This document shows, one piece after another, positions 25,201-33,938 of a stretch of DNA of 64,000 bases. A program made the position numbers and the translations under genes. The stretch covers positions 8,747,504-8,811,503 of the forward strand of contig NC_136005.1 in the NCBI RefSeq assembly GCF_048128805.1. The letters are read 5' to 3'. The notes under the pieces are model-generated. The model ran no database searches, had not been told where the DNA came from, and saw only the letters and a program-made list of their open reading frames with translations. The DNA comes from Centroberyx gerrardi (Eukaryota; Chordata; Actinopteri; Beryciformes; Berycidae). How positions within the stretch are numbered: position 1 is the first letter of the stretch; each line of letters opens with the position of its first letter.

Positions 25201-25576
25201 TAGGGATGGGACAATATATCGAAATTCAGTATATCGCAATACAAAAATGTGGCAATACGTATCGTGGAGCAGAAAAATGAATTGCGATATTTTATTCTGC
25301 TGTTGGAATCACAAATGAGATGGCTGGTCCATCACAATTTCGCAAACTCCATTGAAACTATTATTGACATTGACATTTTTAAATTCTTGTTTACATTCTA
25401 GCAAGCCAGTGCCATTGCTAGAAAGTTTTGTGTCTCAGAAATAAACATAATTCTGCACAGCCATTCTATGTTGTCATTTAACTTTTTTATTACATCGTAT
25501 CGTGGTTTTATCGATTAATGAACCCCGCATCGCGTATCAAATCGCATCGTGAGATAAGCATATCGTCCCATCCTTA
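25201..25576. mobile_element. hAT-type miniature element (376 bp) that supplies the gene B stop codon
   Basis: It starts TAGGGATGGGACAATAT and ends ATCGTCCCATCCTTA, a terminal inverted repeat of the TAGGGATGGGAC class. It is flanked by GTACTAAG (25193-25200) and GTACTGAG (25577-25584), an 8-bp target duplication with one substitution. Gene A has the uninterrupted sequence TGTGTACTGAGGACG at 14740-14754, the empty site. The last three bases (TTA, 25574-25576) read TAA in gene B. Confidence 0.88.
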
Positions 25577-31500: not shown

Positions 31501-33938
31501 GCATATGCATTTGTGGGTGTTCCAAGGCTGAGGCGCAAAATAAAGGGAGGGAATGATGCAAATTGGCAGTGGACGTGATTTATCTAAAGACGGTGGCCGT
31601 TAACACGTGCTGATTGCGCACGGAATTTAAGACCTGGGAAAAGCATGTCTTATCATTTTGCGCATAGGATAGCTCTGCTGAAACTGTCTCTGGAACTGGC
31701 TCTAAGATCAAAGTGACACAATCACCTACACAGCATAACATGCAGTCATTATATCGCAGGGTTTAAACGAGTATGCTGACTTACAAATGTACAATTTAAG
31801 CCTCATTGGCAGAGTAACAGAATACGCACTCAACATGCAGACTATTACCTAAATATACAAAAACGAAAAGTTGCAGGCTCTTCTTTGGATTTGCTGACAC
31901 TTATTATAAACCAATGTCTCTGCGGCATTGCCTTGATGAAAACAATGCAGCTGAAACGTGTGCGTAATAACTGTCACGACACCGGAGAGGTGTGTGCGCG
32001 GCTTCTCCAGCTATATGTAACAGTACCTTCACCAGGTCTCCATCCCTCCCACACCTGGCACCTGCGTCTCAGGCAGGCTCTCCTGCACTTGCTCCTTCAA
32101 GGGAGTTAAGGCTCCTCTTTGGCTTTATTTATGGTCAGCATTTTGGTTCACCTCATATCATACCAGCGGTTTTTACCCCCACTAAATCGCGCTTGAGGTG
32201 CATTCACTTTATGTCGTTCCAGAGTGACTTTTTACGCGCTCTTCTCTGCAGCTCTTTGGGGTTTTCTCTGCCACGAACACTTCAAGCTCCACTGGAGAGA
32301 CATTTGCGCTTCTTTTGCCCACCATTACATTGCCGCTAATGGGCTATTGTGCGCATTAGGTGGCCCTTACATTAGCGCAGTCGCAATTCTAATTAATTAC
32401 CTATCTGCGCCTCCGCTCATTTGCGTGCCCTACTTTAGTAAATACCTTGTGCTGGCGGTACCAATTGAACCCGCAATTGCTTTTGCGTTGCGCCAGGAAT
32501 TGCGACATGTTAGTAGATCCGGGCCTTAGTCACAAGATGCTGTTTTGAGTTCCTCTGAGTTCCTCAACACAGCTTAGTGGTTTGCTTCTGAAAGCAGGCA
32601 TGTTAGATATCACTGGTATTTGACACATACATGATATAATGTGCTTGTACTCATGCTTAATTCTGCCTTCATTTCCAGAGGGTCAGTCAAGCAGAGCTGC
32701 ATTACCTTGGCCAAATGATGCTCCTGACAGGGATTCTACTGCACCAGGAAACCCGAGCTGGCGACACACGACTTGGGCTTCATTAAGGTCCCAGTCATCG
32801 TCGCACACAGTCCCCCAAACTCCATCATGGTAAATCTCCACACGGCCCTCAGAAGGATCCTGGCCATCAACCAGCCTAATGGTACCTTCCCTCTTCCCTG
32901 ACGAGACACAAAAAAATCAACCAAACATCATGGAAATTAACAAATTCAGTTACTCCATATCCAGTCATTTTCACTCAAATATACTGACAACCCCTTGAAA
33001 ACTGTCTGTTTTAAGGTAAGTGTCACGTCTGTATTAAGCCGCGAGTAGCATCACTCACAATTGTTAAATATAACCAATTTCCCAATTTCTTAAATAGTTC
33101 ATTATGTATCTTGCTAGCATTATCTCATTGGGGTATATATCACCCCATATTGAGAATTTTGATAATTCTCATAAGAAAATAATTTATTAAAACATTTGTT
33201 TGTATATTAAAACATTTTCGTATGACATCATTGTTTCAGCCTTGCTGACTTGAGCTATGTATTACCTCCAGTGGTGGGAAAAATAATAACCTAGAAGTAT
33301 TGTTACTTTGCTGAAATTGTACTTAGTAGAGGTAAAATTACTGATGCACAAATCTACTTGAGTAAATGTAAAAAAAAATAGCTATTAATAAGCTAGCTAG
33401 CTTTAATGGAAAAAGCTTTACAAATAAAAGTAGAGCTACATTACTCTTCCCTCTTCCACAGTTGGCCAATTTGCAACTGGCCGGTTTCTGATGCAATCCT
33501 TATGGAGAGCCAACAAAATGTACACTCTGTAATGGATGTGATATAAACTGTAGCAAAGTACATTTTATGATTTTAAAATTGGTTCCTTCTTTCCACCCTT
33601 GATTGCCCCATGTTTGAGAATTCTGTTCATTCACATAAAATTTTTTTTATCAGTTATAAATCACCTCTGTTTCATGGGTGGTTGTGCAAGACATTGGATC
33701 AAAGAAACAAATAATTACTTTGGCTGGGACGTTTTTGGGAAACAAATTGCTCTCATGTTCATTGTGCCTTGAAAATTGTCATGTAATTACATTTGAATGG
33801 GTTAGGGTTAGTGCTGTGCTTAAGGGACAGTGACACAATGCCACTGAAGGACTACAGCTTCACAAGATAAAAGTACTCACCAGCAGATAAGCTGACAGTC
33901 AGCAAAAGGATGCAGAATAATAAGAAAATCTCCTTCAT
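25574..33938 (-). CDS. lgals3bp-like: Galectin-3-binding protein-like, gene B (double SRCR-BTB-BACK)
   Basis: Predicted exons in transcript order: 33881-33938 (signal peptide [20 protein letters not shown]), 32706-32897 and 31108-31239 (SRCR 1), 28385-28576 and 27940-28071 (SRCR 2), 26811-27117 (BTB), 25574-26600 (BACK). All junctions are GT-AG and phases are 1-1-1-1-1-2, giving 679 aa without interruption. Both SRCR domains keep six cysteines. The two SRCR exon pairs and their introns are near-identical, so the duplication is recent. The BTB exon has an expanded linker of GPT/SVP-type repeats (33 nt longer than in gene A). The last exon is about 93% identical to gene A by eye but lacks its final three residues, because a hAT element provides the TAA stop. 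Because every SRCR exon pair is phase 1-1, either pair could be skipped in frame. A secreted galectin/matrix-binding role is inferred from the family. Confidence 0.85.
26811..27117 (-). other. BTB exon of gene B with expanded PT-rich linker
   Basis: The exon begins (after G) with [18 protein letters not shown], which is repeats of a seven-residue unit not present in gene A ([11 protein letters not shown] only). It then continues into the conserved [18 protein letters not shown] and BTB core. The extra repeats lengthen a Thr/Ser/Pro linker between the second SRCR and the BTB domain, a plausible O-glycosylated hinge. Confidence 0.8.
27235..29502. repeat. Proximal copy of the SRCR-exon duplication in gene B
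   Basis: Starting at GAAAGTAAAATGGACATGAG, this segment matches 30393 onward. Over the first several hundred bases (27235-27840 against 30397-31020) the two are almost identical base for base. It contains the two exons of SRCR 2. Homology to the distal copy stops near 29502 at GACTAAAAGGTCACAGATCTGA, a word also present at 27187, which suggests a breakpoint there. Confidence 0.85.
29503..30396. repeat. Filler segment copied from the gene B 5' flank
   Basis: This segment separates the two SRCR duplication copies. From AGCCGAGGGCATCA (29532) to the CAGGATCTGTGCTTGTTTA word (near 30385) it matches about 35581-36990, apart from element insertions specific to each copy. It is therefore a piece of the region upstream of gene B, now inside the gene. 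Confidence 0.7.
29623..29953. mobile_element. hAT (Charlie-like) miniature element, 331 bp, with 8-bp duplication
   Basis: It begins CAGTGGTTCTCAACGGGG and ends GGTTGAGAATCACTG, flanked by perfect CTCTAGAG (29615-29622 and 29954-29961). The paralogous sequence at about 35653 reads GGTCTCTAGAGGGTGTCTC without the element, which is an empty site. A relative of the same family lies in reverse orientation at 50710-51032. Confidence 0.9.
30397..33700. repeat. Distal copy of the SRCR-exon duplication in gene B
   Basis: It is homologous to 27235-29502. It carries the two exons of SRCR 1 and is interrupted by the Harbinger-like element at 31351-32525. Past about 33680 it continues like gene A intron 1 (GTGCAAGACATTGGA then AAGAAACAAA), so this copy retains the ancestral left junction. 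Confidence 0.85.
31351..32525. mobile_element. PIF/Harbinger-like non-autonomous element, 1175 bp, in gene B intron
   Basis: It starts GGCCCGGATCTACTAAAG and ends TGTTAGTAGATCCGGGCC, good terminal inverted repeats with GGCCC ends. It is flanked by TTA (31348-31350 and 32526-32528), the 3-bp TWA-type duplication of PIF/Harbinger. The proximal duplicate has the uninterrupted CAAACTTAGTCACAAG (about 28197-28212), an exact empty site. Sub-terminal inverted GCGCA-rich words are present. Internal ORFs have no transposase similarity that I can recognise. Confidence 0.9.

Follow-up and report, generated by a model that had tools for sequence, protein, structure and literature searches.

Does a gene of the LGALS3BP (Mac-2BP, 90K) class, whose usual architecture is described as having a single SRCR domain (PMC8474792), encode two of these domains at the locus presented here, and by what route did the second one arise? 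The window, that is, the whole stretch of 64,000 nucleotides that was analysed, is free of N and lies at C9:8747504-8811503 of a 779-Mb assembly in 278 contigs, which served for the genome searches. It holds three consecutive lgals3bp-like genes on the minus strand, namely gene C (coding from 42446 to 37680), gene B (33938 to 25574) and gene A (20776 to 14731). They have a common layout, in which the first coding exon ends in phase 1, two exons (192 and 132 nt) encode the SRCR domain, and a BTB exon precedes the last exon, which bears BACK. A tblastn search within the window finds the 192+132 pair doubled in gene B only. We consider it probable that a tandem duplication took place inside gene B and that the main transcript carries both pairs, which would make the product a secreted SRCR-SRCR-stalk-BTB-BACK protein.

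Gene B opens with a coding exon at 33881..33938 (minus strand, as are all of its features given below), which ends in phase 1 and encodes a signal peptide as judged by eye. All four SRCR exons named in a preliminary description of this DNA were found: the two halves of SRCR copy 1 at 32706..32897 (192 nt) and 31108..31239 (132 nt), and those of copy 2 at 28385..28576 (192 nt) and 27940..28071 (132 nt, the more acidic of the two second halves). Each has AG/GT borders, phase 1 and a length divisible by three, and the copies differ at 6 of 192 and 6 of 132 bases; the near-identity and the intact phase 1-1 splicing described earlier thus hold, as do the six cysteines per pair (domain positions 32, 45, 76, 86, 96 and 106). 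The stalk plus BTB exon spans 26811..27117. The last coding exon, at 25574..26600, supplies the end of the BTB region, BACK and the C-terminal part, with the stop at 25574-25576.

Splicing both pairs in order yields an open frame of 679 aa plus stop, in which the predicted protein reads signal peptide, SRCR, SRCR, stalk, BTB, BACK. One pair alone, whether the first or the second, also gives an in-frame product (571 aa plus stop), which bears out the proposal that either pair can be skipped in frame. The same is true of a mixed pair that joins the first exon of pair 1 to the second exon of pair 2 (571 aa plus stop), and of a version with neither pair (463 aa plus stop). Pfam assigns two stretches of the spliced protein to SRCR (PF00530) and matches BACK above the cut-off. 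No BTB family is matched by Pfam at E 0.001; the BTB region matches the galectin-3-binding protein chains 6gfb and 6gfc (E = 9e-19 and 1.2e-18). Further, the SRCR structure of Mac-2-binding protein (1by2) matches gene B, and the C-terminal part is shared with LGALS3BP. Of the marks of that family, gene B has the signal peptide (by eye), the six-cysteine group A SRCR, and BTB followed by BACK, and it departs from the family in having two SRCRs, not one. Since its exons and its BTB-BACK part are homologous to those of gene A throughout, we regard it as an LGALS3BP-like gene with a derived architecture.

The stalk is also altered. It is Pro/Thr-rich and longer than that of gene A, with 21-nt repeats (27065-27128) at the start of the BTB exon and a segment of 20 protein letters in gene B versus GPEPTTPE in gene A. 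Two extra CAG triplets lie 21 and 42 nt inside the BTB exon, in frame with the acceptor, so that stalk length could differ through splicing.

Searched at the protein level, the last exon of gene B has six matches in the assembly: the three genes of the window, a locus at C7:19594074 (46% identity), and two loci at 32% identity (C7:19973395 and C20:6874236). The C7:19594074 locus contains a single SRCR pair in the 9 kb inspected, and among the matches listed (of 152) no SRCR lies close to C7:19973395 or C20:6874236. Genes A and C and the C7:19594074 locus have one SRCR each, and two SRCRs occur in one of the four clear lgals3bp-like genes found in the assembly, gene B. Single-exon SRCR domains also form a large cluster, spread over both strands, elsewhere in the genome (G000:C7:32.64-33.10 Mb). 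The last-exon proteins of genes A and B are 91% identical. A comparison of the BTB plus last exons (14731-16292 in A, 25574-27117 in B) reveals stretches of 191 and 193 nt without any difference and six consecutive 90-nt windows at 96-100% identity, followed by five at 84-92%, a pattern that suggests probable gene conversion between the two genes in these exons.

The duplicated segment measures 2.3 kb, stands in tandem, begins in intron 1 and stops shortly before the BTB exon. Copy 2 of the unit occupies 27187..29502 (2316 bp). Copy 1 occupies 30374..33703 (its start is at about 33703) and includes an insertion of 1175 bp; its intron-3 tail ends with 22 bp at 29524-29503, beyond a second insertion of about 849 bp. 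In the junction region (29475..29560) this tail is joined to intron 1 (from 29502), with intron-3 sequence ending CTTTTAGTC followed directly by intron-1 sequence. The same CTTTTAGTC end is found in copy 2, 69 bp ahead of the BTB exon. At most about two bases are shared at the join, and for this reason a non-homologous or microhomology event appears likeliest; an 86-base probe across the junction has one match in the assembly. Because the SRCR exons are flanked by phase-1 introns, the extra copy was inserted with the frame unbroken. That two 192-nt exons should be 97% alike, with exon order kept and homologous introns, is far beyond what chance would produce, and the observed gene structure is almost certainly real.

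The event seems to have taken place within gene B, given that the copies are nearer to each other than to gene A (12 differences over 324 exon bases, versus 30 and 32 from gene A) and that the intron-3 tail at the junction carries one base of the B form and not the A form. The same two grounds speak against gene A as the donor of the extra pair, whether through unequal crossing-over or through conversion, and this origin was rejected. Homologous recombination between repeats was likewise considered as the cause and discarded: the repeat next to the junction was inserted into intron 3 of copy 1, whose sequence flanks it on either side, and neither copy 2 nor gene A contains it.

The flanking introns had been called almost identical, which is true of their aligned parts (48 of 1747 bases differ) and not of the introns as wholes, since copy 1 carries two insertions and has deletions in intron 1. 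One insertion is a 1175-bp mobile element in intron 2 of copy 1 (31351..32525), with GGCCCGGATCTACTAA inverted ends and flanked on each side by TAA; it has at least 49 matches in the assembly, itself included (40 of 290 candidates scored), and from its end features is presumably PIF/Harbinger-like. The other, in intron 3 of copy 1 (29525..30373, ends approximate), is a dispersed repeat about 849 bp long, the first 414 bases of which have at least 41 matches, itself included (40 of 1000 candidates scored). Nested inside it is an element at 29623-29953 with CTCTAGAG on both flanks, which we take to be hAT-like from its end features. Copy 2 and gene A have empty sites for both insertions. Further, stretches of 16 and 29 bases that copy 2 and gene A have in intron 1 are missing from copy 1; in a three-way alignment of this intron only these two deletions among three are clear, with gene A aligning unreliably at the third, longer gap. 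Insertions and deletions confined to copy 1 indicate that the copies had separate histories. The duplication came first, and the two insertions into copy 1 came after it.

Substitution rates in fish are 2-5 x 10^-9 per site per year, and at such rates the duplication would be roughly 3-7 million years old. The preliminary description of an in-frame and recent event is thus sound, “recent” being understood as fairly recent. Divergence is uneven among the introns (28 of 733 bases in intron 1 versus 12 of 728 in intron 3, P 0.015, a comparison picked after looking), which makes the dating rough. With gene A as reference for the direction of change, 831 alignment columns place 20 changes on copy 1 and 14 on copy 2. 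Fourteen of these 34 changes lie in one indel-rich block of intron 2, where the pairwise alignment had only 5 differences; leaving the block out gives 10 changes on each copy. The 132-nt exon alone has 1 change on copy 1 and 5 on copy 2.

An important matter is whether the second SRCR, if made, is of use to the organism. Among the 12 exon differences, 11 are replacements and 1 is silent (Nei-Gojobori), with dN 0.045 and dS 0.014 between the SRCR copies. A test for positive selection on SRCR2 was not significant (binomial P 0.22), nor was a comparison of exon and intron divergence between the copies (Fisher P 0.37). Replacement sites differ at 11 of 252.8 versus 48 of 1747 bases for introns (Poisson P = 0.09); as the former diverge at least as much as the latter, constraint on the second SRCR is not supported. 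The excess of amino-acid changes would fit relaxed constraint equally well as adaptation, and the functional importance suggested earlier for the doubled domain is a conjecture. These figures, which are indistinguishable from neutral evolution, speak for a reading that we hold to be credible, though short of probable: the second SRCR is expressed and functionally neutral, as a redundant young duplicate under relaxed constraint. Such a state is structurally compatible with the explanation that we prefer. On the other side, both copies retain the cysteines, the cation-site residues and the splice sites, although at such low divergence this carries little weight. The SRCR also evolves fast between genes A and B (dN 0.098 and dS 0.102 for gene A versus copy 1; dN/dS 0.96 and 1.13 for A versus B), so that the pattern is not specific to redundancy. 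The BTB-BACK part, with a dN/dS of 0.50 between A and B, looks constrained.

The duplication could also be real and most transcripts contain one SRCR pair, by skipping or by mutually exclusive use, with the other pair kept as an alternative cassette. The single-pair, mixed and no-pair combinations are all in frame, and the 2Ig and 4Ig isoforms of human B7-H3, which are described as following a tandem exon duplication (PMC3172298), set a precedent. However, the splice sites are nearly identical between the two SRCR copies, the frame is kept either way, and no sequence feature enforces exclusivity; regulated skipping would be compatible with both points. Thus, the sequence offers no ground to expect the skipping of one pair, and we think it unlikely that one-pair transcripts predominate. 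The alternation between one- and two-SRCR forms that had been proposed is possible for gene B; the main transcript most likely carries both pairs.

Assembly error is an unlikely source of the second SRCR pair, and that two alleles of a single-SRCR gene were placed in series is very improbable: haplotypes of heterozygous fish can differ by a few per cent, with indels and insertions, so that the divergence, indels and insertion differences of the copies fall within their range and the insertion differences by themselves could also distinguish two alleles, but the window contains no N, a sharp internal and gapless junction joins intron 3 to intron 1, and, less strongly, the five matches of the SRCR exon in the assembly (both copies of gene B, gene A close to them, and two others at 74-76%) include no spare single-SRCR allele, an argument with little force if the assembly had been purged of alternate haplotypes.

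The preferred explanation, a two-SRCR protein, invites a closer look at the domains themselves. Six cysteines denote a group A SRCR and eight a group B SRCR, as set out in PMC5435793, and each SRCR of gene B has six. Both contain D33, D34, D72, D73, N95 and E100, which with a constant offset of 986 correspond to D1019, D1020, D1058, D1059, N1081 and E1086 of DMBT1. As reported in PMC7043408, D1019, D1020 and E1086 form cation site 2 on the DMBT1 surface, D1020, D1058, D1059 and N1081 form site 3, and mutation of D1019 or D1020 abolishes binding. The equivalent of the site-1 residue D1026 is E in both copies. Gene A departs from site 3 at two residues (G73 and D95) and gene C at one (D95). Judged by their side chains, both SRCRs of gene B are predicted cation-dependent ligand-binding domains.

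The second half of the domain has changed in charge. From copy 1 to copy 2 the differences are K68N, R82H, R85L, R89S, G90E and K93E, and the net charges of this half are 0 (copy 1), -7 (copy 2), -3 (gene A) and -5 (gene C). At positions 82, 85, 89 and 90 gene A has the copy-1 residue, and at 68 and 93 it has that of neither copy; part of the charge difference may therefore be a gain in copy 1. The basic residues missing from copy 2 could matter for ligands.

Consecutive SRCRs are shared with CD163/M130, CD5L and other tandem-SRCR scavenger proteins, and the linker of CD163 is nearly equal in length. The SRCR pair of gene B can be aligned over its full length with tandem CD163 domains, the linker needing a gap of one residue, so that a two-SRCR unit appears sterically ordinary. 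The SRCR domains of CD163 belong to group B, and we know of no BTB-BACK part in any of these scavenger proteins. Among the papers listed in searches of the open-licence PMC literature, no two-SRCR LGALS3BP was found, which is weak evidence of absence from print, and passages of PMC12645945, PMC10855680 and PMC3927612 describe no two-SRCR BTB-BACK protein.

Changes in the number of binding domains have consequences elsewhere. DMBT1/SALSA is a different protein, with arrays of 8-13 SRCRs that vary in number among alleles, whereas gene B has gone from one to two; bacterial binding by its 8-SRCR variant is reported to be about 20-45% lower than that by the 13-SRCR variant (PMC5435793). The TGF-beta receptors and B7-H3 belong to other families; like gene B they show a vertebrate binding domain duplicated in frame, in their case with effects on function. 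For the receptors, PMC13187141 reports 12 independent duplications of the ligand-binding domain, some of them in fish. According to the same source, the extra domain in recently diverged lineages keeps the ligand-interacting residues and binding is enhanced, and in older lineages it changes faster and is linked to inhibitory function. Since the doubling of binding domains is already known to tune function in these three systems, the surprise offered by gene B is moderate.

How might a second SRCR act in this protein? LGALS3BP is secreted and binds galectin-3 and matrix. Its oligomers and rings are described as forming through BTB/BACK, with the SRCR not the cause of aggregation (PMC8474792); a doubled SRCR should thus raise valency and leave assembly intact. 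We propose that break-and-join without long homology duplicated the 2.3-kb segment of gene B in tandem, and that the protein, if secreted as predicted, would form a BTB/BACK-driven ring in which each subunit presents two cation-dependent ligand-binding domains, the second more acidic than the first. That the two-SRCR protein is produced seems rather likely on the evidence of the sequence. An adaptive role for its second SRCR is considerably less so, and a duplicate this young, with divergence close to neutral, may be no more than tolerated. A secreted ring of two specificities is quite doubtful: SRCR1 would keep R82, R85 and R89, basic residues also present in gene A, the acidic SRCR2, its cation-site residues intact, would take other ligands, and in-frame skipping would mix one- and two-SRCR subunits within one oligomer. 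Gene B shows the gain of a domain at an early stage, in a gene for a secreted immune protein; the junction, a paralogue that serves as outgroup and the insertions that came later can all be seen. Further, genes A and B form a natural one- versus two-SRCR pair, with which the effect of SRCR number on avidity in a BTB-assembled ring can be tested.

The rest of the window contains three neighbour loci: DMAP1 (7885-11121), a DUF5578 gene (45495-47179) and a third at 51970-53410. The third has an HhH-GPD match below the cut-off and an HHH match above it, and we take it to resemble MUTYH. A reverse-transcriptase ORF (RVT_1) at 61612-62634 looks like part of a LINE element, and ORFs at 22110-23166 and 58916-59933 look similar. 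An imperfect palindrome of 103 bp, with 91% identity to its own reverse complement, lies at 44032-44134.
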